Made by a program: the position numbers and the translations under genes. Of a DNA stretch of 64,000 bases, positions 18,823 through 60,296 are shown piece after piece (the first letter of the stretch is position 1; the number at the start of each line of letters is the position of its first letter). The notes under the pieces are model-generated. The model saw nothing but the letters and a program-made list of their open reading frames with translations. It did not search any database and was not told the origin of the DNA. The DNA is from a candidate division KSB1 bacterium (lineage in GTDB: Bacteria; Electryoneota; RPQS01): positions 1-64,000 of the forward strand of contig JACRMR010000023.1 of assembly GCA_016214895.1 (NCBI GenBank), in the 5' to 3' direction.

Positions 18823-19989
18823 TCAGTTACCAACAGTTATGCTAATTAACTTGAAGGCGATTAGCTCGCGGAACAGTTCATTCGTCTTGTCCGTAAGTCG
18901 ATCTTGCTCAAATGTTATGTATCCAATGTCGCTGTAATTCGTTGCGAGGCTCACCTTATCTTCCTTGAAGACAATTATCTTGCGGTCGTAAAGAAACGAT
19001 GACGCACCGAGTTCGAAGACTACATTCTCACTGGGTCTCCACAACGGCTTGCCGTCCTTGTCCGTCAACTCCTCATCAGCCGTGAAGATCAGAATCGCTG
19101 CACCGCACTCATTCATGACGTCCGCAACCTTCTGAGAAATCGGTCGTCCCGCGTTTGCTTCTCTTATGGCAATCTTGTATGGGATGCCATACTGCTTCAG
19201 GATCCCTTCAAGTTGTTCGAGCGGGCGCTTGTTCTTTCCATGAGCAATAAAAATTGCTCTTCTAGCACCCGCCTGTGGTTCTCCTTTTTGCGGGGGGCGG
19301 GTACTGGCGTCTGCGAGCTGGCGTACATCACTTTGCACGTCATCTTCCGCGATCATTGCGGTTTCAGGCGGCGGATCTGGGAACTGAACTGCAGTGTTGT
19401 CCAAGTCAACATACGTCGAGTCCTTCACACGCCTGAAGAAACCTACGAAGTCAGCGCTTTTCTTCAACAATTCGAATGTTCGAGCAGTAGCATCAGAACC
19501 AACCCCCATCTCTTCAAGTACGTTTTTCGCAATAGTATCTTGTGGGAACTTGGAATTGTTGTACTTTGTTAAAAACTCCCGAATCACTCGCGGCTTCAGA
19601 CATGCTTCACGCAACGCAGCTCTTTCATCACCCTCCTCGGTAGGCGCAACCACTCGACGCCCAAGGGGCGTTAGCGAAATCGTCGAAGCGTTATATGCAC
19701 CGTCGGTGAGACCGTATGCCACAGCGGCACCGGTCATCCTTCGGAAAAGCAAGCCACCCGGTTCCAATTCCATCGCTTCCGCTACTCGAAGTGGCTTAGT
19801 CGCGTCCTTGCCAAAATTGTCCGCAATCGCACGCGGGACTCTAACAGCATCTTCAAGTGAGAATCCTGGAATATCAGTTTGCCGAACGTATGCCCGGCTC
19901 CGATTTTCCTCAGGATCTCTCTTGTTTGTCTTCGTCTTTGTCGTGCTCCGCTTGCTCGCGCGCCGGATCTTAGATATAGGCTTCTTCAC
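18823..19989 (-). CDS. TIR-like (CAP12/PF10137-type) domain protein, candidate defence effector
   Basis: A 388-residue protein. Residues ~245-385 resemble the TIR-like domain once called 'predicted nucleotide-binding': RAIFIAHGKNKRPLEQLEG, the EANAGRPISQKV loop, AAILIFTADEELTDKDG and ENVVFELGASSFLYDRK, whose Glu is a candidate NADase residue. Residues ~40-215 look like a double winged-helix region resembling DUF5343 (LTPLGRRVVAPTEEGDERAAL). The first ~35 residues are Lys/Arg-rich. Relatives with this TIR domain act as NAD-cleaving antiphage effectors. The GTG start is preceded by GAGGAG at 9 nt. The gene is visibly A+T-richer than its neighbours, sits between dnaK and clpB and is flanked by hairpin repeats, which suggests acquisition. 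Activity is inferred. Confidence 0.8.
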   Translation of the reverse strand: MKKPISKIRRASKRSTTKTKTNKRDPEENRSRAYVRQTDIPGFSLEDAVRVPRAIADNFGKDATKPLRVAEAMELEPGGLLFRRMTGAAVAYGLTDGAYNASTISLTPLGRRVVAPTEEGDERAALREACLKPRVIREFLTKYNNSKFPQDTIAKNVLEEMGVGSDATARTFELLKKSADFVGFFRRVKDSTYVDLDNTAVQFPDPPPETAMIAEDDVQSDVRQLADASTRPPQKGEPQAGARRAIFIAHGKNKRPLEQLEGILKQYGIPYKIAIREANAGRPISQKVADVMNECGAAILIFTADEELTDKDGKPLWRPSENVVFELGASSFLYDRKIIVFKEDKVSLATNYSDIGYITFEQDRLTDKTNELFRELIAFKLISITVGN

Positions 19990-27190: not shown

Positions 27191-27212
27191 GGGCGATGCC
27201 ATCGTCGGCTAC
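27191..27212 (-). repeat. GTAG-headed hairpin overlapping a stop codon
   Basis: On the minus strand it reads GTAGCCGACGATGGCATC then GCCC, with CGATGGCATCG self-complementary. TAG of its head is the stop codon of the C25-family gene at 27209-30931. Confidence 0.55.
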
Positions 27213-30200
27213 TTCATCAGAATCATTTTGCGCGTGAGCACACCGAGCGGAGTGGAGAGGCGGTAGAAGTAAATGCCGCTGCCGACAGCGGTACCGTACT
27301 CGCTGCGGCCATTCCACGTCAGGCGGTGAATTCCGGCCTCGGCGACGTTGTCGGAGAGCAAGGCGACCGAGCGACCGAGCACATCAAAGATCTCCAGCCG
27401 GATCGGACTGCTCCGCGGCAGGCTGAACTGAATGGTCGTCTCGGGATTGAATGGATTCGGGAAGTTTTGCGCCAACTCGATTTCTTGTGGCAGCGCGGTG
27501 TGCTCCGGATCGGCGGCAACAATTACCGGCGGCGTCGTCGTCAGCAGAATCTGCCGTCCGGCATCGAGCGCAGCCGCCGACTGCGCATACTGCCCGCTAC
27601 TGAAGTAGGTGGCGCCGTCGTCCTGCGCGAGGTTCTCGAAGCCCACAGTGGCTCCGCTGTTGCTAAGGGCGCGCGTCGAGACTTCGTTGTAGAGAAACAC
27701 CCACTGCGCATTTCCCGATTGCGTCGGGTAGGTCGCGGGATTCAGCAGTTGCAACTGGAAGGTACTCCGATAAGTTCCCGTTTGCCAATCGTGAACTTGA
27801 TACCACTCGACGACGAAGCGATCGGTGGCTGTGTCGTAGTAATACGCCAGTTGGCCGGTCTCACCGAAGCGGTAGAACAAGTCATCCCACAACACGGCGA
27901 TCATCGACGAGATGTTGTCGCCCGGATTGGGGAACGGCGTATTCGCGTAATTCGTGGCGGAAGTCGGTCCCGGACGAACCCAGCCGTCGGTCGAAACAGA
28001 CAGCGTGTCTTGGGCCACCCCGTCGTAAGTGAAGCTGAACGGAACGCGCACTCTGAACGTTTGATCGCTCTGGGCGGCTTCGAGCAACGTGCCCGGTCCT
28101 CCCGCCGCCGGTGCGATTTCGAGCCACTGGAAGTTCGGAGCAGCCGAGTACTCGACGTCCGTGTTATCATAGAGCCAATAGAACCCGTCCGCATCGGAGA
28201 GCGGATCATGGGGGCCGATCTGCCCGATGGTCAACTGAATCGGCAGTGACACTTGGTAGAGGTAAGATCCCATCTGAATCGTCGCGGACAGGTTCAGCGC
28301 CACCGGATGTCCGGACGGTGTGCCGCCACTGGCCTGCAAGCGGAACGAATTCTCGGGGAAGTCATAGTCGGTGCCCGCGGCAATCTGCGGCGCATCGACC
28401 GGCGCGGAGACGATCGTGGTGTATTCATCGGCGGTCACCAGCGAGTATTGGCCGCCGAGCAGCGTGGCGTTTCCGCTGTTCGCCAGCGTGACTTGCAGGT
28501 CGATCAACTCGCCGCGCTCCCAGATGCCGTTCTCGCCGTCTTGGATCACGGTTTGGGTAAGCGAAATCGAGGGCACGTGCAGATCGAGATAGACATTGGA
28601 GGTTGTCGGCTCTCCGTTCTGCGACGTCCAATGCAGCACAAATTCGAGCTGCTGTACCCCGGAGATTGTCGGGGCTACGGAGAAGCTGTAAGGCGACGCG
28701 CCGACGGCAGTACCGCCCGCGGGAATGTTGCCAAAGGTGGCGCTGTTGACCGTGATCCCCACGCCACCGGTCGTCGTCGTGAGCGTGGCCGCCGCGCTGT
28801 TGGCGATCTCCGTGCCGATATTCCGTGCCGTTTCGCTCCAGGCGATCGTTTCGCCCGGATTAACCAAGCCATCGCCGTTGCCGTTGTCGGTCAAGGCGAG
28901 TTCGCCGTGGGCAAGAAACGGTCCGACCGGACCGACATCAAGTACTCGGTGGAACGCGAGCACATTGTCACCCGTGATGGTCACGCCGATGGAGTCCAAG
29001 CCGGTAGTTACCACGGGAATCGTAATTAACGACTGACCGGGCTGCATCCAGCGCGTCACAAACTGACCGGCCTGATACCAGACCGTGACATTCAGGCTTT
29101 CCGCTTCCACCTCGGCCATATTACCGACGGTCAATTCAAGATTGAAGTTCCCGCTCGGGACGGCCGGCGGCAGACTCACGTCAAGGCGCAGCGGAGTGTC
29201 GGTGAAGACCTGCAACGACGGGTCACTCAGTACGAGGTACTGCCGCAGCATCGTCTCGGTGACTTCGCGCACATCGCCGTCAGTTTCGAGGAACAGGTCG
29301 AAGATGCCCCACGCTTGCATCTTTCCGCTCGCGAGCGCAGCCCCCAGCGTGGGAATGTGCCAATCGAGGAACGCGCGGTAGAGCGAGGAATCGAGGCAGT
29401 CATTGTACACGGTATGCGTGTTCCAGCAGGGGCCGATGAAGCCGGCGGCACCTTTTGGTTGGGAAACCGTGCCGACCAACATCCAGTCTTCGCCGAAGCC
29501 GAATCCATCAGGTCCGTCGAACTTGCCAACGCCGCAACCGATCCCGGTCACGATGCACGGCTTGCGGACGTTGTTGAGTTGGTTGATGCTGTTTAGATAG
29601 AATCCGATTCCCGCCCAGCCGATGTCCCAGCCCGTGCCGCGATAATTGACGAAGGTCACGCCCTGGGTGACTGAGTTAATCAACGGCGTCGGTCCCTGGT
29701 TGTCTCCCCAGAGCGAATCCACGTTGGGGAAGCCGTGATCCCACAGCATGGTCTTCACGCGACGCTTGGTCAGTCGCTGCGAAGGATACTGCTCATCGGC
29801 GGCGACGGCGGCGCGCTCGAAGCGCAAGGAGTCCGTCACAAAGGTATCACGTTCGTGCAGGATTGTGCGCGCGACTACGTTCTGGACCTCCGTGGGCGTG
29901 TTGACAATCCACCGGCCGATAAACAGATCGGGGAAGACATCCGAACCCTGCACACAGGAGAAATAGGCCTCGTTGGTGTACGGGTCGCCGGGGTTGTACG
30001 ATTGCTGGCTGAACCGTGTAAGCGGGTCGTCGGTATGCAGAGGGCTGATGGGCAGCTGTGTCTCGTCACCGCAGAGCAACACATAGTCGATGCGGGGCGA
30101 CGATGCATTCAGCTCCTGCACGATGCGGTCATGCACCTGCGTGGCGCTGGGATTGCCGCCAATGGAGTTCTTGGGCAGCGCCGTCACCTTGATTCCGCGC

Positions 30201-30931
30201 TCTTCCTTCCAGCGAATCCAGGACGACAGATTCGTGCTATAGCTGTCGGGATAGATCAGAAGGATATGGGACGGTTCGCTCGTGTAGAAACTCGGGATCG
30301 ACTCCCAGTTGGTCAAGACCGACTGATAGACCTTTTGCCACGTGCGCGAGAAGGCGGTGCGCGGCGTGGTGACGGGATTCTGACCGGTTTGGTCATCGAT
30401 TTCGATGGAAACCGTGGCCTCGGTCACGACGGCGCAGGTCGAACTGGAATTCGCGTACTGAATTGGGCGGAAGGTAACGGGTACGACGCGCACACCGCCC
30501 AAGATTCCGACATCTCCGACCATGACGGCGGCCGGATTGGGATTGTTCTCCGGGATATTGATCGTCGGATTGACGTTGAACGTGGTCGTCTGCCAATCCT
30601 CGATCACGGCGGCCGGGTTCCCCGTGGAGGGCAGGGCAAGGAAGATCGTGAAGCGCGGCACGAGCGTTCCGGAGGCGTTCATCTCGTCCCACGTCCCGGG
30701 AACCGGGTTGTTGAAGTTGATCGCGGATCCGGTCGGCAGGTTTTCCATCACCAGATGGAGCCGCACGCGGTCAGCGCTGAACTCGGTCACCGTGATGGTC
30801 GGAGAGAAGCCGGCCCCCTCGTACACACCGAAGGGGAGCACGTCGGGGACGGCCGTCACAGGAGTTGCTGCAAACAAGCCGAGGCCGGCCAACAGGCAGA
30901 ACAGGTACAGTTCCGTCCGGGTCTTATTCAT
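27209..30931 (-). CDS. C25 (gingipain-like) surface/secreted protein with T9SS-type C-terminal domain
   Basis: A 1240-residue exported protein with a signal peptide of about 27 residues (LFCLLAGLGLFAATPVTA). A propeptide-like region is followed at ~225-580 by a C25 catalytic-domain homologue, including ILLIYPDSY, YVLLCGDETQLP and DLFIGRW. The nucleophile region is kept as GIGCGVGKF (Cys466). The canonical GHG His is replaced by Thr432 in NYRGTGW, so classical gingipain activity is doubtful. Beta-sandwich modules follow. The last ~85 residues form a Por/T9SS-type sorting domain (QNFPNPFNPETTIQFSLP; IFDVLGR; SGIYFYRL), implying outer-membrane secretion. Its TAG stop lies in a REP element. Confidence 0.88.
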   Translation of the reverse strand: MNKTRTELYLFCLLAGLGLFAATPVTAVPDVLPFGVYEGAGFSPTITVTEFSADRVRLHLVMENLPTGSAINFNNPVPGTWDEMNASGTLVPRFTIFLALPSTGNPAAVIEDWQTTTFNVNPTINIPENNPNPAAVMVGDVGILGGVRVVPVTFRPIQYANSSSTCAVVTEATVSIEIDDQTGQNPVTTPRTAFSRTWQKVYQSVLTNWESIPSFYTSEPSHILLIYPDSYSTNLSSWIRWKEERGIKVTALPKNSIGGNPSATQVHDRIVQELNASSPRIDYVLLCGDETQLPISPLHTDDPLTRFSQQSYNPGDPYTNEAYFSCVQGSDVFPDLFIGRWIVNTPTEVQNVVARTILHERDTFVTDSLRFERAAVAADEQYPSQRLTKRRVKTMLWDHGFPNVDSLWGDNQGPTPLINSVTQGVTFVNYRGTGWDIGWAGIGFYLNSINQLNNVRKPCIVTGIGCGVGKFDGPDGFGFGEDWMLVGTVSQPKGAAGFIGPCWNTHTVYNDCLDSSLYRAFLDWHIPTLGAALASGKMQAWGIFDLFLETDGDVREVTETMLRQYLVLSDPSLQVFTDTPLRLDVSLPPAVPSGNFNLELTVGNMAEVEAESLNVTVWYQAGQFVTRWMQPGQSLITIPVVTTGLDSIGVTITGDNVLAFHRVLDVGPVGPFLAHGELALTDNGNGDGLVNPGETIAWSETARNIGTEIANSAAATLTTTTGGVGITVNSATFGNIPAGGTAVGASPYSFSVAPTISGVQQLEFVLHWTSQNGEPTTSNVYLDLHVPSISLTQTVIQDGENGIWERGELIDLQVTLANSGNATLLGGQYSLVTADEYTTIVSAPVDAPQIAAGTDYDFPENSFRLQASGGTPSGHPVALNLSATIQMGSYLYQVSLPIQLTIGQIGPHDPLSDADGFYWLYDNTDVEYSAAPNFQWLEIAPAAGGPGTLLEAAQSDQTFRVRVPFSFTYDGVAQDTLSVSTDGWVRPGPTSATNYANTPFPNPGDNISSMIAVLWDDLFYRFGETGQLAYYYDTATDRFVVEWYQVHDWQTGTYRSTFQLQLLNPATYPTQSGNAQWVFLYNEVSTRALSNSGATVGFENLAQDDGATYFSSGQYAQSAAALDAGRQILLTTTPPVIVAADPEHTALPQEIELAQNFPNPFNPETTIQFSLPRSSPIRLEIFDVLGRSVALLSDNVAEAGIHRLTWNGRSEYGTAVGSGIYFYRLSTPLGVLTRKMILMK

Positions 30932-44840: not shown

Positions 44841-44925
44841 AAGTGGGCCCCTGACTCGTAACATCGCGCACTGCCGACAATAGCGGATTTGCCTTCTCGG
44901 AATGGACAAGAAACGGAGTGACGAC

Positions 44926-47900
44926 GTGAGAAAAACCGTAGCAATTTGTTGCCTGTTTGCGACAACCATGTTGACATCTGCAATCGTATGGGCAACGCCT
45001 TTGGGTGGATCTATCCCTGCCAATTTTCACCGCCTGACCGGTCCATCGGCGGCGGTCCCTTGCCCGACTGAACTAATCGACAGCAATCCGGAGGCCATCC
45101 GCCTCGGCTTTTACGATCCGCCGTTCACACGGCTGGGTATTGAGCTGGGCGGCCAATCGTATGTTGCGCTGCGCATGGACGGTGAAGGCTCCACTCTTTT
45201 GCCGGGTCAGCCAGACTTGCCGATGGTGAACCGCGTGCTCATGGTCAGTAATCATGGGCAAGTCGGGGTCCGTATAGTTTCCCAATCTTACCATGTGGAG
45301 TCGCTGGACGCACTTCCCGCGCCATTCGTTTCGCTGCAATCGAATGACGAAGAAAGCCGGATGTTGGTGACTCCCGATAGTCGAATCTATTCGACGGACG
45401 CGTGGTACCCCGCGGAAGTCGCCGCGGTGAGTACTCCGGCGACGTTTCGCGACCTGCGGATCGTCAACTTGTCGGTATTTCCAATTCAGGTGAATCCGGT
45501 CACGCGCGAGATTCGCGTGTACGACCAGTTGGAAGTAGCGGTGGAGAATCTGGGCGGAATCGGCGAGCACGAGATCGATCTCGTGCCGCAATCGATCACA
45601 CCCGGCTTCAAGAAGCTGTACTCGATGGTGACGAACTTCCGCGACAGCGCGTTGGACGCGTTGCCGGTAGTCCCGGGGAAGCAACTATTTATCTGTCCAG
45701 ACGGCACGACGCAGGCGACCACGCAGCTGCTCGTGGACTGGCGGCGGAAGAAGGGCAATGATGCCTATTTGACCACGGCAACGGCCATCGGCGGGAACGA
45801 TGCAGTCCTCATTCGGAACTACATAGTAACGGAATACAACAACAGCGGCGGCACTCTCGAATCCGTGTGTTTGGTGGGCGATCCGTCCGGTGGTGCGGGT
45901 TACAATCTCGCCACGCACGGCACGCAGCTCGACAACTTCTTCGGGACGTTGGGCACGGGACCGAATCCGGATCCGGTGCCGGACATCGGGGTCGGTCGTC
46001 TGCCGGTATTGGATGCCACTCAACTCGGGGCGATGGTCACGAAGACCGTCAACTACGAAGCGGATCCGTACGTCGCGGACACGACGTGGTTTCGTCGCGC
46101 GTGGTGCGCCGCGCACATTGCGACCATCGAATCCAACGCCTCGACGAAGCAGTACACGCGGCAGATCATGCTGCAACACGGCATGGATTCGGTCTACTTC
46201 AATATCATGACCAGCGACATGACCGCCGAGATCATGGCGCCGCGCATTGATCAGGGCGTGTGTGTGTTCAATCATCGCATGAGCTGGCTGTTTGAGATGG
46301 ATCCCATCGAGATCGACGGTCTGACTAACGGCCGCAAGTTGCCGTTTGTGATGACGGTCACCTGCGGAACCGGGACGTTTTCGGGCAGTGGTGATGTCCT
46401 GTCGGAAGCGTGGGTGCGCAAGGGTACGGCATCGACTCCAATCGGAGCGATCGGCGCGGTCGGGATGTCGGGTTCAGGAACGCACGTTGCGCAGAACAAC
46501 ATCGTTGATGCGGGCGTGATGCACGGCATCTTCTCGCTCGGTATTCGCGAACAGAGTCTGGCGCTGATTGCCGGCAAGCTGGCGCTCTATCAAACCTACT
46601 CAGGGCACGACGATGCCTCGGTGAACAACTTCTGCTACTGGGCAAACCTGATGGGCGATCCCGGAGTGGAACTCTTCACGCGCGTGCCACGCACGGCAGT
46701 GGTTACGCACCCCGCGTCCATTCCACTGAACACCAACAACGTCACCGTAACGGTCGCCGTCGGCGGCGGTTCGCCCGATCCCGGGGCCCTCGTCGGCCTG
46801 GTGAAGGGTACCGAGACGTTCGCCCGCGGCTACACGGATGAAAACGGCATCGTGAATCTCGCTGTGTCCACGCCGACCACCGGGACGATGATCATCACGG
46901 TAACCGGCCCCGGCATCGATACCTACAACGGCACGATCACCGTGGCCTCGGCTGCCGCCTCGCTCTCGTTCTTCAGCAACACGGTTGACGACGACAACTC
47001 AGGTGGCACGGTTGGCAACAGCAACGGCGTGCTCAACCCCGGCGAGACCATCGACCTGAATCTCCGGCTCACCAATAGCGGTACGACCTCTACGGTAACG
47101 GGCATCAGCGGGACGCTATCGTGCTCGCATCCGGGAGTTTCCGTGACGGGCGCGACGCGCGGCTATCCCAACATCGCGGTTGGCGCGAATGCGGCTCCGA
47201 CAACTCCGTTCCGGATTCAAACCGCACAGCTGTTCAACGCGGAGCCGATCTCGTTCTTCTTGACGACCACATCATCGGCCGGTACACAGGTCATTCGGCT
47301 CGATCTCACTCCGTCCAGCGGCGATGTGGCATTTGTCAGCAGTTCATTCCCCGACGGCAACAGTCGCGTCGATCCGGGCGACACGGGTCCGCTGACGGTG
47401 ACGATCAACAACTCCGGGGCCGTTGCTTTCACGAACGCCAGCGCGATCCTGCGCTCCTTGGACCCCGACATCACTGTCACGGATTCCCTTGGAACTTATG
47501 GCGCGGTCGCCAACGGCGCCAATGCCACGAACAGCGGCAACCCGTTCGCGCTGGTCGCCTCGGCACAGGCGCTCGGCGGGTCCACGGCGCGAATGCAATT
47601 GGTGCTGACCGACGTGACCGGCTTCCGTGATTCCGTGGAATTCCTGCAAAACGTCGGACTGGTGGCCACGACCTGTGCAACGGGTCCGGACGCCTACGGC
47701 TACTACGCGTTCGACAATACGGAAACCTCGCCGGCCAGCGCGGCGTGCCAGTATTTCTGGACCGAGATCAGCGGAGTCGGAACCAACCTCGGGATGACCG
47801 ATAACGCGCAGGATCAGGATCAGAGCGCGCTGCGCACGCTGCCGTTCACGTTCCGTTATTACGGAGTGGACTACACGCAGATTACGATCTGCTCGAATGG

Positions 47901-49767
47901 CTGGATCGCGTTCGGCGATCACACGGACATAACGGACTTCCGCAACTATCCGATCCCCGGCCCGCTCGGTCCGCCCGCGATGGTCGCCGCCTTCTGGGAT
48001 GACCTGGTGATTGGCGGAATCGCGAATCCGGGTGTGTGGATCTATCATGATGTGGCCAACGCTCAGTACATTGTGCAGTGGCGCGTCCAGACGCGATGCA
48101 CATTAGTGGATGAAGTCTTCCAGATCGTGCTCATGAATCCGGCGGTCTATCCCTCCGCCTCCGGCGACGGCAAGATTCTGATGCAGTACCAATCCGTTGC
48201 GCAGTCGAGTAACTGCACCGCGGTCGGCGGCGTCAACGACAACGAATACTCCACCACCGGAATCCAGAACGCGGACCATTCGGCGGGCCTCCAATATTGC
48301 TATTGGAATGTGTATGCACCGAGCGCCGCACCGCTGGCCGCGGGCCGCGCCGTCGTGTACACGACCGACCAGACCGGTAGTCTGATTGCGGACCTCACGT
48401 TGATCGCTCCGAACGGCGGCGAGCAGTGGTATGGCGCGGATGTCCGCGATATCGCGTGGCATCCCGGCGATGTCGGCGGCAACATCAGCATCGAGCTCTC
48501 GCGCAGTGGCACCGGCGGGCCGTGGGAACCGCTAACGGCTTCGACACCGAACGACGGTCTGTTCTCCTTTACCGTAACCGGGGCCGCGTCGAGCACCTGC
48601 CGTGTGCGTATTACGTCACTCTCTGACCCGTTGCAAACCGACGTTTCGGCGACGGACTTCTCGATCGCGGGACTGACCTTGTCGGCTCCCGACGGCGGAG
48701 ATTTCTGGTTCACGGGCGATACCCGCACGATTAGTTGGGTTCCCGCCGGCGTGGCGGGTAATATCCGCGTCGAACTTTCGCGGACCGGAAGCGGCGGTCC
48801 GTGGACGGTGCTGGATGCCGGGACGGCCAACGATGGGCTGTTTGACTGGGTAGTCGTCAGTCCGATTTCGACGGCCTGCCGGGTTCGCATCACGGCCGTG
48901 AACGATGGCGCTCAGACCGATGTCTCCGCGGCCGATTTCACGATTGCCACGTTGCAAACGATCTTAAGCGAGGGCTTCGAGAGTGGGGCACCGCTCTGGA
49001 CCCACGCGGCGAGCGGCGGCAGTTGGGTGGACCAGTGGCACATCTCCACGGAGCTCGCGCAGACCGGCACTCACTCGTACAAATGCGGAGATCCCAGTAC
49101 GGGAACCTATGCGGCCCTGAACGATGCGCTGCTGCTCTCACCGGTGCTGACGGCGCTCCCGGCGAACGCGACGCTAAGGTACTCCTACCAGATTGAGGCG
49201 GAGGTCTCGACCACGTTTCCCGACTCGGCGTACGATGGCGGTGTGCTCGAAGTCTCGGCCGACGGCGGCGCATTTACGCAGGTCTTCCCCACTGCCGGGT
49301 ACAATCGTCGCTTCCGGACGACGGCCGGCGGAGGCAATCCGTTCACCGGCCCGATGCCGGGACTGGCCTGTTACTCGGCCACGGTTTCGACCTGGACCAC
49401 GGAGTCGCTTGATCTGAATCCCTATGCCGGGCAAGATATCCAGCTTCGTTTTCGCTTCGGATCGGACGCGGGTGCTCATCGTGAGGGCTGGTATGTTGAC
49501 GATGTCTCCGTCACGGCCCCGCTGATCGCGCCTCCGCCGCCGACCGAGCCGATTTCCGTGACACTTTCCCGTCCCAGCGGTGGTCTGGTGACCCTGCACT
49601 GGGCCGATGACACGAATTACGGCTATAAGATTCTCTACTCGACGACTCCGGACGGACCGTGGACCTGGAATCCGGCCTGGGTGACGACGGGGAACAGCTT
49701 CGTGGTGCCGGACGGCATTGCCGAGGTAAGGCGCTTCTTCTATGTCATCGGTTGGGATGGGCAGTAG
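44926..49767 (+). CDS. Giant secreted C25-family (gingipain-like) protein, copy A
   Basis: About 1613 residues from GTG 44926, which has GGAG seven bases upstream and gives a compact signal peptide (ICCLFATTMLTSAIVWA); an ATG at 44902 is an alternative. A propeptide-like region is followed by the C25 homologue (~240-560: KQLFICPDG; SVCLVGDPSGGAGYN). Cys480 lies in VTCGTGTF, but the GHG His position is Ser453 in NHRMSW. Next come CARDB-like sandwiches (DDDNSGGTVGNSNGVLNPG), two ~95-residue Kre9/Knh1-like repeats (LIAPNGGEQW; LSAPDGGDFW), an immune-inhibitor-A/MAM-like lectin domain (~1350-1530) and an FN3-like C-terminus. There is no T9SS-type tail. It is a tandem paralogue of the next gene. 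Confidence 0.85.
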   Translation: MRKTVAICCLFATTMLTSAIVWATPLGGSIPANFHRLTGPSAAVPCPTELIDSNPEAIRLGFYDPPFTRLGIELGGQSYVALRMDGEGSTLLPGQPDLPMVNRVLMVSNHGQVGVRIVSQSYHVESLDALPAPFVSLQSNDEESRMLVTPDSRIYSTDAWYPAEVAAVSTPATFRDLRIVNLSVFPIQVNPVTREIRVYDQLEVAVENLGGIGEHEIDLVPQSITPGFKKLYSMVTNFRDSALDALPVVPGKQLFICPDGTTQATTQLLVDWRRKKGNDAYLTTATAIGGNDAVLIRNYIVTEYNNSGGTLESVCLVGDPSGGAGYNLATHGTQLDNFFGTLGTGPNPDPVPDIGVGRLPVLDATQLGAMVTKTVNYEADPYVADTTWFRRAWCAAHIATIESNASTKQYTRQIMLQHGMDSVYFNIMTSDMTAEIMAPRIDQGVCVFNHRMSWLFEMDPIEIDGLTNGRKLPFVMTVTCGTGTFSGSGDVLSEAWVRKGTASTPIGAIGAVGMSGSGTHVAQNNIVDAGVMHGIFSLGIREQSLALIAGKLALYQTYSGHDDASVNNFCYWANLMGDPGVELFTRVPRTAVVTHPASIPLNTNNVTVTVAVGGGSPDPGALVGLVKGTETFARGYTDENGIVNLAVSTPTTGTMIITVTGPGIDTYNGTITVASAAASLSFFSNTVDDDNSGGTVGNSNGVLNPGETIDLNLRLTNSGTTSTVTGISGTLSCSHPGVSVTGATRGYPNIAVGANAAPTTPFRIQTAQLFNAEPISFFLTTTSSAGTQVIRLDLTPSSGDVAFVSSSFPDGNSRVDPGDTGPLTVTINNSGAVAFTNASAILRSLDPDITVTDSLGTYGAVANGANATNSGNPFALVASAQALGGSTARMQLVLTDVTGFRDSVEFLQNVGLVATTCATGPDAYGYYAFDNTETSPASAACQYFWTEISGVGTNLGMTDNAQDQDQSALRTLPFTFRYYGVDYTQITICSNGWIAFGDHTDITDFRNYPIPGPLGPPAMVAAFWDDLVIGGIANPGVWIYHDVANAQYIVQWRVQTRCTLVDEVFQIVLMNPAVYPSASGDGKILMQYQSVAQSSNCTAVGGVNDNEYSTTGIQNADHSAGLQYCYWNVYAPSAAPLAAGRAVVYTTDQTGSLIADLTLIAPNGGEQWYGADVRDIAWHPGDVGGNISIELSRSGTGGPWEPLTASTPNDGLFSFTVTGAASSTCRVRITSLSDPLQTDVSATDFSIAGLTLSAPDGGDFWFTGDTRTISWVPAGVAGNIRVELSRTGSGGPWTVLDAGTANDGLFDWVVVSPISTACRVRITAVNDGAQTDVSAADFTIATLQTILSEGFESGAPLWTHAASGGSWVDQWHISTELAQTGTHSYKCGDPSTGTYAALNDALLLSPVLTALPANATLRYSYQIEAEVSTTFPDSAYDGGVLEVSADGGAFTQVFPTAGYNRRFRTTAGGGNPFTGPMPGLACYSATVSTWTTESLDLNPYAGQDIQLRFRFGSDAGAHREGWYVDDVSVTAPLIAPPPPTEPISVTLSRPSGGLVTLHWADDTNYGYKILYSTTPDGPWTWNPAWVTTGNSFVVPDGIAEVRRFFYVIGWDGQ

Positions 49768-50062: not shown

Positions 50063-53000
50063 ATGAGTTTTCGGCGACAGTTTGACCAGCTCGGACAGAT
50101 TAGCCTGATACTTGCCGTGCTGGTAGCAATTTGCTTAGTCCCCGGCAGTTATGCCGCGGAAACCGGTTCGCAGACTTCGGTCCGACCGGTCATGGTACCT
50201 GCCAATTTCAATCAGCTTGCAGGCCCGCAGGCGGTGGTTCGCATGCCGCAGGAGATGCTGGATCCGAGCCCGGCAGCGGTCCGACTGAGGTTCTATGATC
50301 CTCCCGTGGAGTACGGTACCGCGGAGGTGGGCGGCGAGACGTACCAGACCATGCAGATGCTCGGCGAGGCCAATACGCTCGAACCGGGCTTTCCCGATGT
50401 TCCGCGTATAGCCCGGCTCTTGATGGTCGATCGCACGGGGAATGTGGACCTGACGATTCTGAATCAGCAATTCCACATTGAGCAGGGCGGCGTTCCCGCT
50501 CCGGTGCAACCGCTGCAAGGCGACAATGGCTATGAGCCGTCCGTCCCGGTGCTTCCGGCGGACGAGATTTACGCGAACAACGACTGGTATCCGGCGCAGA
50601 TCGCGACGATCTCGGAGCCGATGACGCTGCGCGACATCCGGTTCGTGATTCTCAACATCTTCCCGGTGCAGGTCAATCCGGTGACGGGCGAGCGCCGCGT
50701 GTATGACGATCTCGAAGTGATCGTCGAGAATGTCGGCGGTACCGGTCCGAACGAGATCCTGTTTGTCCCCACCTCGATTTCGCCTTCGTTCAAGAAGATG
50801 TACAGCATGTTCGAGAACTTCGAGGACAGCGCGATCGACGCGCTTCCCGTATTCCCGGGCAATATGCTGATCTTCTGTTCGACGGATGCGACGGTGATCA
50901 GCAATGTGGGCGAACTGGCCCAGTGGAAGAAACTGAAGGGGATCGACGTATCGGTCCGTTCAGGGACGTGGACGACGCAGGCGATCAGGGACACGATCAC
51001 CGCGGTCTATAATCAGACCGGCGGGAAGTTGGAATACGTCTGTCTCGTTGGCGATCCGGACAATGGCAGCGGCGCGTACTACGTGCCAACGCACTGGACG
51101 GGTTCCGAGAGCTCGTCGCAGTGGGACAATTACTACGGCACCCTGAGCTCCGGCGGGCCGAATCCCGACCCGGTACCCGACGTCGCGGTGGGTCGTCTCA
51201 GCAACATCGAGACCAGCGATGCGTTGGTAGGAATCATCCGCAAGACGACACGGTACGAAGCCGCGCCCTCAATGGCTCCGGATAGCGGCTGGTTCACCCG
51301 CGCATGGTGTGCTTCCAATACGGGCCACATCGCCTCGAACCCCTCGACAAAAGAGTACACGCGTCAGATCATGCTGCAACACGGCGTGAACACGGTGTAT
51401 TGGAACGTTTATGGCAGCAGCGGTGTCACGGCGGACCTCGCCGCCCGGATCGGCAGCGGAATCAGCGTGTTCAATTACCGCCTGTCCTATATCGGCGAGT
51501 TCGGCCCGGCTGATATTACGACCTCAACGGTTCCGGCGGACCCGCGGACTCCGTTTGTGATGGTGGTCACGTGCGGCACGGGCAGTTTCCAGACCGGCGA
51601 GTCGCTGTCCGAGCGCTGGTTGAAACCGCCGGCCCAAACCACGTCAAATCCCGCGGGTGCGATTGGCTGCGTGGGTGTCGCCACCTTGAGCACGAGCGTG
51701 CCCTACAATAACGTCATCGACGCGGGTGCAATGTACGCTCTCTACGGCCTTGATCTCGAAGAGCAGGGCCCCTTGTTGGTGGCGGCCAAGCTGCAGCTGT
51801 ACTTGAACTACTGGAACGTTGGCCATAGCGGGCAGGTCCAGCAGTTCAGCTACTGGTCGAACCTGATGGGTGATCCGTCCGTTCCGATCTGGATCAAGCA
51901 GCCACTTTCGGCGGTCGTAACCAAGCCGACGTCGATTGCCGTCGGCGCGAACAACGTGGCGATCTCGGTTGCGGACGCCTCCCATGGCACGCCGGTCAAC
52001 GGGGCGCTCGTCTGTCTCGAAAAAGGGTCGTGGTCTTCGCCCGAATCGTGGACTCGCGGCTATACGAGCGGACTCGGCGCCATCAACCTGCCGGTGACGA
52101 TCACGACGACCGGCTACCTGTACGTGACGATCACCAAGGATGACCTGCGGACGGTTCGCGATTCGATTCTGGTGAACGCCGCCTCGGGTCTGGCCTACAA
52201 CAGCCGCACGGTTGACGACGACAACAGCGGTGGGACGATCGGCAACAGCAACGGCGTGTTGAATCCGGGCGAGACGATTGATCTCTCCATCGGCATTCAC
52301 AACTACAATGGTAGCACGATCAGCGGCATTTCCGGGACGCTTTCCACTTCGTCTCCGGGAATCACGATCACGCAAGGCGTGAGCGCCTATGCCAACATCG
52401 CCGCCGGCGGCAACGGGACGAACTCGACGCCATTCCGCTTTACCGTAAGTTCCGTCTTCAATGGCGAGCCGGTCTCACTCTACTTGTCTCTGACCAGTGG
52501 CTCGGGCAGTTTCTACCTCCGCCTCGACTTCACGCCCGCATCCGGTGATGTGACGTATGTGAGTAACGTTTACTCCGGGCCGGGCGGCAGCTACGACCCG
52601 GGTGAAAGCGGGAACGTGACGGTGACCTTCCAGAATTCCGGTGCCGCGCTGCAATCGCTGATTTCGGCGCAGGGCATCCTGCGCTCCCTCGACCCCTACG
52701 TGATTGTCAACGACTCGCTGGGCGCGTACGGCACGGTCACGGCCGGGTCCAATGCCACAAACAGCGGCGACCCCTACAATGTTACCTTGAGCAGCCAGTC
52801 GTTCAACGGTCGCGTGGCCCGGATGCAGCTGGTCGTACATGACAACAATGGGTTCCGCGATAGCACGAACTTCTCGATCACGATCGGCACCGCGAGCAGT
52901 ACCAGCCCCTCCGGACCGGATGCTTACGGATACTACGCTTACGATAACACGGAGACTCAGCCCGCGGGCATCGCGTCCACATATAGCTGGATCGAAATCG

Positions 53001-55231
53001 CGCCCGGTCTCGGCGGTTCCGGTACGTCGTTCAATTGGGACGACCAGCTGGAAGACGGCGACGACTACGGTGTCTTGACACTGCCGTTCACAGCCCGCAT
53101 GTACGGGCAGACGTTCGTGCCGTCGCAGATCACGGTTTGCGACAACGGCTGGCTGGCCTTCGGTAACTATGCGATGTGGGACTACCGCAACTATCGCATG
53201 GGCACGCCGATTGGACCGCCCTACATGGTCGCGGCGTACTGGGACGATCTCGAAGTCCAGTCCGGCGGGAACATGAACGTGTTCTACTACTACGATCCTG
53301 CCAATCACTGGTATGTCGTCGAGTGGCTCGCGCGCACGCAGTACACGAATGTGACGGAGAATTTCGAGGTCATCATCTACGACCCGGCTTACTATCCGTC
53401 GGTCACCGGTGACTGCAAGATCAAGGTCCAGTACCAGACGGTGAATCTCAGCGCGAATTCCAACACCAACGACAACGATTACGCGTCGATCGGCATTCAG
53501 GACGGCGATCACGCGGTTGGCCTCGATTACTACTACTGGAATGAGCTCTTGTCCCTGCATCCCGGTGCGGCCACCATCGCTGCCGGTCGTTCGATCATGT
53601 ACACCACGGATGCGACCGGCCAGTTGAATCCGATCGTGACGGTCAACACTCCGAACGGCGGCGAGACGTTCTACATCGGTCAGAGTTACAACGTGCTTTG
53701 GTCAACGTCCGCGATCTCCGGGAACATGAATGTCTATCTGAACCGCGCCTATCCCGGTCCGACGTGGGAAACGCTGTTCAGCAACACGCCGAACGACGGC
53801 CTGCAAGCATGGACGGCGGCCGGCTCGCCGACGACGGCGGCGCGCATTCGCGTCACCAGTGTATCGACACCTTCGGCCGGCGACACGTCGAACGCCAACT
53901 TCACGATCGCGGCACCGACGGCCCAGATCACGCAGCCCAACGGCGGTGAATTCTTGTCGATTGGTGATCCCTACTCCATTCAGTACGTCTCAACCGGTCT
54001 GGGTGCGGCGACGGTTTCGATCAACCGCAACTATCCGGCCGGCTCGTGGGACGTGATCGATGCTGCCGCGGCGGGCGACGTGTACTGGGTCATCACGGGA
54101 CCGGGAACTTCGAACGCCCGCATTCGCGTGATCGGCAACGCGGCCCCCGCTTACGGCGACACCTCGGACGCGAATTTCACGATCGGCCTGGCGCCGACCC
54201 TGAGCCACGATCAGCATCCGGACGGTGCCCCGGGCGCCGCGACCTTCACCGCCTTGGTGACGGACGATGCGGGCGGATTTGTGACGAAACTCTTCTATCG
54301 CGTGGTCGGCGCGGCGAACTTCGACTCCCTGACGTTCACGAGCACGGGCAATCCTGACGAGTTCTCGGCGGTGACCCCCGTTCTCGCGGCGGGCTACTAT
54401 GAGTACTTCGTCCGTTGTACCGATGCGCAGAATCTGTCCGTGTATGAGCCGAGCACGGGTACGCACACGTTCGACCTCGCGGAGCTCAGCACTGCGGTGA
54501 TCTTTTACGATGACGGCGGCGCCGAGAATTACAACTGGGTGGACGGCATCGGGTTCAAGTGGGCGGTCAAGTTTGACGCTCCCTCCTACCCTTACGCGCT
54601 GTGCAACGCGAAGTTCGCCGTTTGTCCGACCGCACCTCAGACCGGCCATCAGGCGGCGCGTGTGACCGTGTATTCGGCTGATGGACCCGGCGGCTTGCCC
54701 GGCACGATCCTGTTCAGCGATACGTCCGGCGCAGCCGGCAATATCATCGGCGGTCTTCCCGCGGGTGCCGCATGGGCTGACGTGGTCACGCGGCTGAGCA
54801 ATAGCTGTCTGACGATCAACTCCGCATTCTATATCGCTGTGGAAAATGTCGAGCCGCGTCTGAAGCCCGATGCCTTCGCCACGGACACGAGCGTGACCCG
54901 CGCGGGCCGCTCTTACTTCTGGGACGAATGCGACGGGCAGTGGTTCATTGAATCGTCCGGCGACATCAACGCCCGTCCGGGCGACCGCATGATCCGGGCT
55001 GCGGGCTGGACGGTCACACCGCCCACGATCACGGTGATCAAGAACGGCAGCAACGCCAGCTTGAACTGGACGGCCACCGGTGCCCCCTATTACAAGGTGT
55101 ACGCGGCGACGACGTTGACGGGCGGTTATGCCTACATCGGATCAACCAGTACCAACAGCTACAACGATCCGACGCCGTGGGTTGCAAACGCGAATCGGTT
55201 CTATCAGGTCACGAGTAGCGACGCGCCGTAG
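50063..55231 (+). CDS. Giant secreted C25-family (gingipain-like) protein, copy B
   Basis: A 1722-residue paralogue of the preceding gene, starting at ATG with AGGAGA nine bases upstream. The hydrophobic segment LILAVLVAICLVPGSYA is the signal peptide. The C25 homologue (~255-600) has Cys504 in VTCGTGSF, while the GHG His position is Ser475 in NYRLSY. It shares the DDDNSGG and VLNPGETIDLS sandwiches and two Kre9-like repeats (VNTPNGGETF; ITQPNGGEFL) with copy A. It then differs in having a domain around residues 1490-1640 (DDGGAENYNWVDGIGFKW). The FN3-like C-terminus (YYKVYAATTLTGGYAYIG) matches copy A. No membrane anchor or T9SS tail is visible. Confidence 0.85.
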   Translation: MSFRRQFDQLGQISLILAVLVAICLVPGSYAAETGSQTSVRPVMVPANFNQLAGPQAVVRMPQEMLDPSPAAVRLRFYDPPVEYGTAEVGGETYQTMQMLGEANTLEPGFPDVPRIARLLMVDRTGNVDLTILNQQFHIEQGGVPAPVQPLQGDNGYEPSVPVLPADEIYANNDWYPAQIATISEPMTLRDIRFVILNIFPVQVNPVTGERRVYDDLEVIVENVGGTGPNEILFVPTSISPSFKKMYSMFENFEDSAIDALPVFPGNMLIFCSTDATVISNVGELAQWKKLKGIDVSVRSGTWTTQAIRDTITAVYNQTGGKLEYVCLVGDPDNGSGAYYVPTHWTGSESSSQWDNYYGTLSSGGPNPDPVPDVAVGRLSNIETSDALVGIIRKTTRYEAAPSMAPDSGWFTRAWCASNTGHIASNPSTKEYTRQIMLQHGVNTVYWNVYGSSGVTADLAARIGSGISVFNYRLSYIGEFGPADITTSTVPADPRTPFVMVVTCGTGSFQTGESLSERWLKPPAQTTSNPAGAIGCVGVATLSTSVPYNNVIDAGAMYALYGLDLEEQGPLLVAAKLQLYLNYWNVGHSGQVQQFSYWSNLMGDPSVPIWIKQPLSAVVTKPTSIAVGANNVAISVADASHGTPVNGALVCLEKGSWSSPESWTRGYTSGLGAINLPVTITTTGYLYVTITKDDLRTVRDSILVNAASGLAYNSRTVDDDNSGGTIGNSNGVLNPGETIDLSIGIHNYNGSTISGISGTLSTSSPGITITQGVSAYANIAAGGNGTNSTPFRFTVSSVFNGEPVSLYLSLTSGSGSFYLRLDFTPASGDVTYVSNVYSGPGGSYDPGESGNVTVTFQNSGAALQSLISAQGILRSLDPYVIVNDSLGAYGTVTAGSNATNSGDPYNVTLSSQSFNGRVARMQLVVHDNNGFRDSTNFSITIGTASSTSPSGPDAYGYYAYDNTETQPAGIASTYSWIEIAPGLGGSGTSFNWDDQLEDGDDYGVLTLPFTARMYGQTFVPSQITVCDNGWLAFGNYAMWDYRNYRMGTPIGPPYMVAAYWDDLEVQSGGNMNVFYYYDPANHWYVVEWLARTQYTNVTENFEVIIYDPAYYPSVTGDCKIKVQYQTVNLSANSNTNDNDYASIGIQDGDHAVGLDYYYWNELLSLHPGAATIAAGRSIMYTTDATGQLNPIVTVNTPNGGETFYIGQSYNVLWSTSAISGNMNVYLNRAYPGPTWETLFSNTPNDGLQAWTAAGSPTTAARIRVTSVSTPSAGDTSNANFTIAAPTAQITQPNGGEFLSIGDPYSIQYVSTGLGAATVSINRNYPAGSWDVIDAAAAGDVYWVITGPGTSNARIRVIGNAAPAYGDTSDANFTIGLAPTLSHDQHPDGAPGAATFTALVTDDAGGFVTKLFYRVVGAANFDSLTFTSTGNPDEFSAVTPVLAAGYYEYFVRCTDAQNLSVYEPSTGTHTFDLAELSTAVIFYDDGGAENYNWVDGIGFKWAVKFDAPSYPYALCNAKFAVCPTAPQTGHQAARVTVYSADGPGGLPGTILFSDTSGAAGNIIGGLPAGAAWADVVTRLSNSCLTINSAFYIAVENVEPRLKPDAFATDTSVTRAGRSYFWDECDGQWFIESSGDINARPGDRMIRAAGWTVTPPTITVIKNGSNASLNWTATGAPYYKVYAATTLTGGYAYIGSTSTNSYNDPTPWVANANRFYQVTSSDAP

Positions 55232-58010: not shown

Positions 58011-58097
58011 GGTCCAGTCTCCCGGATGTGGCTCGCCGCCCGTGGCAACATCGGCGGCGCAAGTTCGGACGATCTTCACCTTAACATGCTATCATAG

Positions 58098-58286: not shown

Positions 58287-58589
58287 CAAGCTTCGCGCCA
58301 CGACTTTCGCCAAGTAACAACAACCGCGCACAGCGGAAGGCTCAAGAAATTGAACGTAATGGCAACGACCGAGCGTGCGGAAATTCTAAGGGATTGGGGT
58401 TCCGACCTTGTGAGTTCGTGCGCAACGGCACGAGGTGGGTCATGAAACGAGAAGAGAGGCTTTGCGGGCCTCTCTGCGGATCCTAATCAATGTCACCCCG
58501 CCGAGTGAAGCTCGGCAAGCAGCACGTGCCACTCTACAAATCCCTTGACGCGCCTACCAAGGTCGGCAGTGCGGGGAGGCATCGAGTGC

Positions 58590-58829
58590 CTAAAGTTCCT
58601 TCGCGATGTCGGCTGCGTCAAGCCTCAAATGCGCCGCCGCTGTTGTGAGGATCGATAGCAGCGTCCCCGCCTTGATTTCCCGGTGATTCGGCACAACGAC
58701 TTCACACTCAGGTGGCCCGGGATGTTTCAACACAACGTGGCTCCCGGATTGCCTGATTTCCACGGAACCATGTTATTTCAGAACCCGGATCAGATCGTTT
58801 GGCCGGACATCACGAGGTAGCCTGACCAT
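58590..58829 (-). pseudogene. hicA toxin pseudogene (in-frame TAA at codon 19)
   Basis: Translation from ATG 58829 gives MVRLPRDVRPNDLIRVLK, then TAA (58775-58773), then HGSVEIRQSGSHVVLKHPG and a normal HicA C-terminus (LLSILTTAAAHLRLDAADI) up to TAG. The whole is 80 codons, the usual size for a HicA mRNA interferase, and includes the catalytic-type His in GSHVVL. A single substitution in the TAA codon would restore it. It starts 3 bp after the intact hicB-like gene. An undetected sequencing error would be the alternative to decay. Confidence 0.8.
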
Positions 58830-58832
58830 GAT

Positions 58833-59075
58833 CTACGCCGCCACCGGATTCACCGCGATCGTCTCTTCGCGCGTCGTCATGTGCAGGAGTCGAATCACCT
58901 TGGGCTTTGACGACTTGTCCTCATAGTAGAGATTCACCGCGTCGCGCACCATCACCTTGAGGTCCTCCCAACTATCACCCTGCGTAAAAATATTCACGCC
59001 GAGCGCACGCGCGTTGTAACCGCCCTCTTCCGCCTCGCGGACTTCGAAGATGATCTCAGTTTGGGATTCTGACAT
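58833..59075 (-). CDS. HicB-like antitoxin
   Basis: An 80-residue partial-RNase-H-fold antitoxin (IIFEVREAEEGGYNARALGV, then IFTQGDSWEDLKVMVRDAV). It is of the short type found with LPRDV-type HicA toxins and lacks a separate DNA-binding tail. The gene is intact, whereas the downstream hicA carries a stop codon, so it is an orphan antitoxin. The order is hicB then hicA. Confidence 0.8.
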   Translation of the reverse strand: MSESQTEIIFEVREAEEGGYNARALGVNIFTQGDSWEDLKVMVRDAVNLYYEDKSSKPKVIRLLHMTTREETIAVNPVAA

Positions 59076-59121: not shown

Positions 59122-59353
59122 TCACTTCTCGCGGAATCGCTTTTCGAACTCCTTGCGGGTCATTCCCAGACTGCGCAGCGATGTTCGGACATGCAAATCG
59201 GGAACGTCTTTGCAATGCTCTTGATGACAATTGGACGCCCAAGGAGTCGTCCGGCTTGTCCCAAATCTCGTGGCTACTCTCGGTGCGGACGCGGACAAGG
59301 CCAAGCCTTTTCAGAAACGCTTTCCATTTCTTGGTCGGAATTTGCGGAGGCGA
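59122..59353 (-). pseudogene. hicA-type toxin pseudogene with two frameshifts
   Basis: Three consecutive frames encode one HicA-like protein. PPQIPTKKWKAFLKRLGLV and RVRTESSHEIWDKPDDSLG are in one frame, RPIVIKSIAK in the next, and DVPDLHVRTSLRSLGMTRKE with EFEKRFREK in the third, ending at TGA 59122. Two single-base deletions (near 59247 and 59217) explain it. The usual ATG before PP is also missing. The HicA-type His is in SSHEIW. It begins 8 bp after the intact hicB at 59361-59696. Confidence 0.72.
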
Positions 59354-59360
59354 GCTTTCC

Positions 59361-59696
59361 TCAAACCGTCGTATAGGAAATGGGAACGCTGGTTCTGGTC
59401 AGGCGAACCGATCTTGATCGCACGGCGCGCTTGTTCTTCGCGGACAATTCAGGCGGTTGGTATTTTGGAGTGGGTTTCTGCTTCAGCGTCCATCCGAGGC
59501 CGAGTATGACCTTCTCCAACGTACCCTTGCGTTCCGTCTCCTTGACAAAAATCTTCAGCGCCTGCTCGAATGACTTCTTGGCCGCCGCTTCCGCGCGTCC
59601 ATACGAGGACAGATCCAGCTCAGGGCAGTACGCGACAAAGTAGTCGCCCTCCTGACTGATCAATACGCGGACATTGATTTTGAATTTCTTTGTCAT
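59361..59696 (-). CDS. HicB family antitoxin
   Basis: A 111-residue HicB: VRVLISQEGDYFVAYCPELD, then LSSYGRAEAAAKKSFEQAL, is the classic pseudo-RNase-H signature. A basic C-terminal tail follows. The ATG at 59696 gives MTKKFKINVRVL; longer readings add unconserved residues. The adjacent hicA is frameshifted, making this a second orphan antitoxin beside 58833-59075. Confidence 0.8.
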   Translation of the reverse strand: MTKKFKINVRVLISQEGDYFVAYCPELDLSSYGRAEAAAKKSFEQALKIFVKETERKGTLEKVILGLGWTLKQKPTPKYQPPELSAKNKRAVRSRSVRLTRTSVPISYTTV

Positions 59697-59768: not shown

Positions 59769-59793
59769 GGGCGGGTCACGGACCCGCCCCTAC
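59769..59793 (-). repeat. GTAG-headed REP overlapping a stop codon
   Basis: On the minus strand it reads GTAGGGGCGGGTCCGTGACC then CGCCC, a strong hairpin. TAG of the head is the stop of the DUF35 gene at 59790-60185. The same type occurs at 63125-63169 and 105-127. Confidence 0.65.
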
Positions 59794-60185
59794 TCCGGGA
59801 CGACCTTGTAGCCGTACAGATGCAGGCCTTCGTCGCCGTCGTCCATGAGTTTGCGAAACTCGACGCGGACCTTCATGCCGATCTTGACCTGATCGAGCGG
59901 GCAGTCAGCGAGCTGACAGGTGATGCGGCCGCCGCCGTTGAGTTCGACAATGCAAAGCGCGTAGGGACCGATTTTTTCGAATCCCATCGGCGCGACGCGG
60001 ATGACGGTGTAAGTGAGGATTTCGCCGGTGTACTCGAGCCGGACGGGCTTGAACTTACGATTGCCGTTGCCCGGTTCGACCTGCCGCGCGGGAAAGAACA
60101 CCTTGCCGGTCTTGGCCGACTTGTTCGCCTCGCCGCGATAGCGTTCAGGGATTTCGCGCCAGTAGCGCGCAGTTGAACGGAACAT
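59790..60185 (-). CDS. DUF35 OB-fold protein lacking its zinc ribbon cysteines
   Basis: A 131-residue DUF35-family protein. In archaea this family forms the scaffold that joins acetoacetyl-CoA thiolase to HMG-CoA synthase, and in PhlB-like systems it supports acyltransfer. The OB-fold part is clear (YTGEILTYTVIRVAPMGF; PYALCIVELNGG; KIGMKVRVEF). The N-terminal zinc ribbon normally reads CxxCGxxxFPPRxxCPxC. Here it is SAKTGKVFFPARQVEPGN, so all four Cys are replaced. It follows the thiolase gene by 111 bp, and its stop codon lies in a REP. Confidence 0.85.
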   Translation of the reverse strand: MFRSTARYWREIPERYRGEANKSAKTGKVFFPARQVEPGNGNRKFKPVRLEYTGEILTYTVIRVAPMGFEKIGPYALCIVELNGGGRITCQLADCPLDQVKIGMKVRVEFRKLMDDGDEGLHLYGYKVVPE

Positions 60186-60296
60186 ATTTTGTCCTGAGTG
60201 TTGACTGCCTGGTTGGGTAAACTTGAAACTTCAAACTTGAAACTCGACCCGCTTCGGTTCTGAACTCACGTCTCAAGTTTCACGTTTCACGTTTTC

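Follow-up and report, generated by a model that had tools for sequence, protein, structure and literature searches.

Two adjacent HicBA modules with broken toxin genes and readable antitoxin genes behind a thiolase operon in an uncultured bacterial lineage

The window, which is the whole stretch of 64,000 nucleotides analysed in this work, contains four toxin-antitoxin genes, all on the minus strand and in the order hicB2-hicA2-hicB1-hicA1 (Table 1). They are very probably a lineage-specific tandem of two type II HicBA modules which was gained downstream of a conserved thiolase operon and is now at an early stage of decay. HicA is a small mRNA-cutting ribonuclease which is kept inactive by HicB, and each of the two modules, while intact, would have functioned like other HicBA pairs. 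Both hicB genes have intact frames; hicA2 is interrupted by two frameshifts, hicA1 by a nonsense codon, and the toxin activity of both modules has presumably been lost. The four genes may have been co-transcribed, and the hairpin downstream of hicA1 may mark where transcription of the tandem ends; the consensus scan for terminators which detected it gave 2 sites against 2.6 expected.

Table 1. Features of the toxin-antitoxin cluster and the neighbouring operon gene.
Feature	Position	Strand	Description
OB-fold (ChsH2_C) gene	59790..60185	-	PF01796; last gene of the HMG-CoA-synthase-like / thiolase / OB-fold operon
hicB2	59361..59696	-	intact HicB-type antitoxin ORF, uninterrupted, 111 codons / 111 aa
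hicB2 domains			residues 1-84, conserved core; C-tail, 25 residues, variable
hicA2 pseudogene	59122..59344	-	three frame pieces; breaks near 59238 and 59212-59219
hicB1	58833..59075	-	intact short HicB-type antitoxin ORF, 80 aa; subfamily differs from that of hicB2
hicA1 pseudogene	58590..58829	-	79-codon HicA; in-frame TAA at codon 19 (58775-58773)
terminator-like hairpin	58453..58475	-	downstream of hicA1; found by consensus scan only

The earlier note on this DNA had described an intact hicB upstream of a toxin remnant and, in the remnant, one HicA-like protein running over three successive frames with two frameshifts. Both descriptions hold: the antitoxin is encoded by an ORF of 111 codons (59696-59361), and the three pieces, the first of 35 residues (QIPTKKW...DDSL, 59344-59240), the second of 6 residues (RPIVIK, 59237-59220) and the third (KDVPDLHVRTSLRSLG...REK*, 59211-59122) with its stop at 59122, match a homologue of the same family in a related draft genome, G005. 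This homologue is open throughout in a single frame and served as the reference for the breaks; relative to it both junctions are one base short of whole codons, and the joined pieces show 64-65% amino-acid identity. When the G005 protein was searched against all six frames of the window's genome, two pieces and no others were found (74% identity over 35 aa, E 2.9e-12, and 56% over 25 aa, E 2.2e-4), and as these lie in the correct order and spacing the match is not due to chance. The PF07927 model gives 17.5 bits on piece 1 alone and 18.2 bits on the pieces joined with X at the breaks, with a cut-off of 27 bits, and the identification as HicA2 rests on the G005 homologue. What stands in the place of a gene for the HicA dsRBD-like ribonuclease is a recognisable HicA sequence in three frames and without a start; to judge from the sequence, hicA2 and hicB2 are the remnant of a HicBA module and not a working one.

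It is unlikely that the frameshifts of hicA2 are assembly or sequencing errors and that the toxin is intact, in which case hicA1 would be a separate nonsense case. Such an error would fit the two one-base losses, which are about 25 bases apart and each beside short homopolymers, and the draft state of the window's genome (26 contigs); in addition a conserved thiolase changes frame in the G005 draft, so such breaks do occur in drafts of the family. Against it, the window contains unbroken ORFs of 1722, 1621, 1240, 923 and 874 aa, and the Pfam matches of its glutamate dehydrogenase (GDH), Hsp70, IspD, QueA and aromatic lyase span almost the whole of each model. Full-length genes across the window make a generally indel-ridden assembly unlikely, a local assembly error in hicA2 being possible. 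Furthermore, the start of hicA2 is missing independently of the frameshifts, and the neighbouring hicA1 is also broken, in this case by a stop of the substitution type. The G005 thiolase gene mentioned above (contig 30, L104 1090-2159) is split over two frames, which suggests an assembly indel or a pseudogene.

Two different modules do stand side by side with dead toxins and intact antitoxins, as had been proposed, since in module 1 as well the hicB1 frame is intact and hicA1 carries the TAA. HicA1 is above the PF07927 cut-off (58.7 against 27 bits), yet with one TAA inside; its GSH motif is kept, and an intact hicA1 counterpart is present in another relative, G006. Reading from the GTG (58763) after the TAA would give a product of 57 aa with the GSH motif kept, and some HicA1 activity could therefore remain. 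The idea that the antitoxins could serve a live HicA at another place in the genome was rejected on searches of the window's genome, in which PF07927 finds hicA1 only and a HicA2-like query finds the hicA2 pieces only.

The sequences of HicB1 (80 aa) and HicB2 (111 aa) themselves gave no match in Pfam. Of the aligned homologues of HicB2, 5 out of 16 match PF15919 (HicB_lk_antitox), and the AlphaFold model of HicB2 (pLDDT 75.5) has as its best PDB match HicB3 in the HicA3-HicB3 complex 4p78 (probability 1.00, with an E value of only 7e-3); the family match of the homologues and the structure match both point to a HicB fold. For HicB1 the fold search gave weak matches, the best of them 2yzt, and for this reason a sequence profile was used instead: the profile of HicB1 homologues matches the solved HicB antitoxins 6hpb and 6u0i at about 9e-5. 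HicB1 and HicB2 belong to different HicB subfamilies. The hicB of G006, which is followed by the intact hicA, is 66-67% identical to hicB1, and the G005 homologue of hicB2 is 54% identical overall, with 63% in the core and 24% in the C-tail.

Comparison with intact counterparts suggests that both toxins were lost recently. Against G005, the hicA2 pieces have a pN of 0.21 and a pS of 0.84 (65% identity) and the hicB2 core a pN of 0.21 and a pS of 0.74 (63% identity), that is, equal constraint on the core and the pieces, and the hicB2 C-tail has a pN of 0.56. Against three outgroup HicAs the broken HicA1 has 36, 43 and 41% identity and the intact HicA of G006 37, 36 and 39%; the broken HicA2 has 30, 29 and 36%, and the intact G005 protein 34, 30 and 31%. 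As the broken toxins are no more diverged than the intact counterparts, both were probably inactivated recently on the scale of these distant comparisons, in which synonymous sites are saturated and hence give no date. Freshly dead toxins leave no time for the antitoxins to decay, so that the intactness of the hicB genes carries little information; a toxin lost much earlier than its antitoxin would erode neutrally is not what these comparisons indicate.

The toxin-antitoxin cluster follows an operon composed of an HMG-CoA-synthase-like gene, a thiolase gene and the OB-fold gene. A homologue of the OB-fold gene, 74-79% identical and beside a thiolase gene, is present in five relatives (G001, G002, G003, G005 and G007), and in none of these five was a HicB detected after it. 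The G005 homologue of hicB2 has a different neighbourhood from that in the window, and synteny with the closest homologue was accordingly discarded. The site fits a lineage-specific acquisition of modules which would have been mobile. As to marks of a mobile element, no informative flanking repeats, no nearby tRNA and no Rfam family were found at the site. A phage or plasmid origin was also rejected, the HicB2 search having given no match in viral contigs or plasmids and the HicA2 search none in phages, viral contigs or plasmids. The cluster is surrounded by two short and imperfect inverted repeats (58772-58785 / 60256-60269 and 58046-58061 / 58630-58645), which are probably due to chance. Elsewhere in the window, positions 18823-19989 (minus strand) encode a protein of 388 aa that contains a CAP12/Pycsar TIR effector domain (PF10137, E 2e-15), a candidate anti-phage effector whose gene has a third-position GC of 0.53, below that of its neighbours. 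Gingipain-type C25 peptidase domains, C25 propeptide domains or both occur in three very large proteins, encoded at 27209-30931 (minus), 44902-49767 (plus) and 50063-55231 (plus).

The frequency of such broken modules was estimated in a survey of 39 genomes of the phylum, in which 150 HicA matches were listed, 13 of them with a stop by our count of the rows, the window's own included. An internal stop is therefore found in 12 of the 149 other listed matches, and in at least 8 of the 12 the broken hicA is adjacent to an open hicB that has a start. HicBA modules commonly occur in tandem in this phylum: eight genomes together have 11 pairs of HicA matches separated by no more than about 700 bp, and in the tandem on contig 7 of G013 the second hicA has an internal TAG. 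Double-dead tandems are not common, yet every ingredient is. The earlier note had proposed that related genomes be surveyed for the same double orphan-hicB arrangement, and searches of 60 relatives with HicB1 and HicB2 as queries gave no second instance of two dead toxins with live antitoxins; its absence from the relatives examined points to a single-lineage event. At least four HicBA-like modules are arrayed in about 4 kb on contig 2 of G018 (L101, 4800-9983). A hicB1-like gene directly follows an apparent rpoD-type sigma factor gene in G002 (contig 172, L027) and in G004 (contig 17, L029); at this site the G004 pair is intact, and in G002 the hicB is seemingly frameshifted and the hicA absent.

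In a tandem of HicBA modules in early decay, failure of the toxin first would be the only safe order, since loss of the antitoxin first would kill the cell, and a dead hicA with a still readable hicB would be the expected transitional state. As addiction alone forces the toxin to be lost first, no selection on hicB is needed. The suggestion of the earlier note that the pattern fits selection for antitoxin-only remnants is for this reason unsupported: the toxins appear recently dead, and a dead hicA beside a readable hicB is common in the phylum. We consider it quite improbable that both antitoxins were kept by selection after the loss of the toxins, either as shields against incoming HicA toxins (anti-addiction) or as transcriptional regulators. 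In its favour, both antitoxin genes have open frames with the conserved core kept, orphan antitoxins are widespread and shield or regulator roles have been proposed for them (PMC7192599), and downstream of a hicB2-like gene in an Ignavibacteriales genome no frame resembling HicA was seen, the gene being followed by an apparent dnaN (judged from the translation only). However, the death of the toxins appears too recent for the retention of hicB to be informative, conservation of the hicB2 C-tail is poor (24% identity, pN 0.56), no added DNA-binding domain was found in HicB1 and HicB2, which are short and without a Pfam match, and no other genome shows the double arrangement. Very improbable is the more specific form of this idea, in which the two adjacent HicBs of different subfamilies are kept as a toxin-free pair, for protection from the HicA of incoming elements or for gene regulation, and the toxins were disarmed independently, one by loss of the start and frameshifts and the other by a nonsense mutation.

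The start codon of hicA2, already suspected to be lost, is indeed missing: the first frame has no ATG, GTG or TTG from the upstream stop (TGA) to the HicA part. Intact HicAs of more distant relatives begin with ATG (GTG in one), some 5 to 13 codons upstream of the part that aligns. The G005 homologue (L002, contig 40, about 1452-1228, minus strand) is also without an ATG, GTG or TTG start; there a single TAG ends hicB, hicA follows without a change of frame, and ATT occupies the expected start position. The window is therefore not alone in lacking the start, and either the start was weakened before the lineages of the window and G005 split or G005 uses a rare start. It is a mildly odd point that the closest unbroken homologue shares this lack, and among the genomes searched the window and G005 are the only two members of the subfamily in which a hicA-like gene is retained. 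A non-canonical start was rejected for the hicA2 of the window, which has none of the three codons and no ATT at the expected position. Expression of hicA2 by recoding (programmed frameshifting), whether translation began at a rare codon, for instance ATT, or gave a HicB-HicA product, is extremely improbable. The arrangement in G005 speaks for it; against it, two separate shifts within about 25 bases would be required, no slippery heptamer is seen at either break, neither ATT nor another plausible start is present at the expected position in the window, and the G005 copy needs no frameshift.

The locus offers a clear snapshot of how tandem toxin-antitoxin modules of an uncultured lineage decay with the toxin lost first. 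It also carries a caution: a dead toxin beside an intact antitoxin is not by itself evidence of selection on the antitoxin, since addiction is enough to set the order in which the two are lost. Should the antitoxins nevertheless prove to be maintained, the locus would allow the anti-addiction idea to be tested in nature. Both solitary hicB genes and hicB genes in clusters have already been published, and the present locus is a further instance. It shares with type II HicBA modules the hicB-hicA order, the small ORFs, the HicA and HicB families, the patchy presence in relatives and the variable genomic position, and differs from them in the inactivating mutations of both toxins and in the extended variable C-tail of hicB2. 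Decay of chromosomal toxin-antitoxin systems via nonsense mutation and deletion has been reviewed (PMC7167474), including the decaying ccdO157 of E. coli, which is likewise a chromosomal system lost by inactivating mutations; here the system is HicBA and not Ccd, and two modules in tandem decay together. Orphan antitoxins have been described in Klebsiella, with discussion of anti-addiction and regulator roles (PMC7192599), and HicB is among the prevalent orphan antitoxins of marine genomes (PMC12654330). These too are antitoxin genes without a working toxin, whereas the present case concerns an uncultured lineage and two adjacent instances. In a defence island of Methanosarcina barkeri, two hicBA loci are found with two solitary hicB genes (PMC10865869), and there as here several hicB genes without working partners lie together; in the window, in contrast, a toxin remnant is visible beside each hicB and no hicBA pair is intact.
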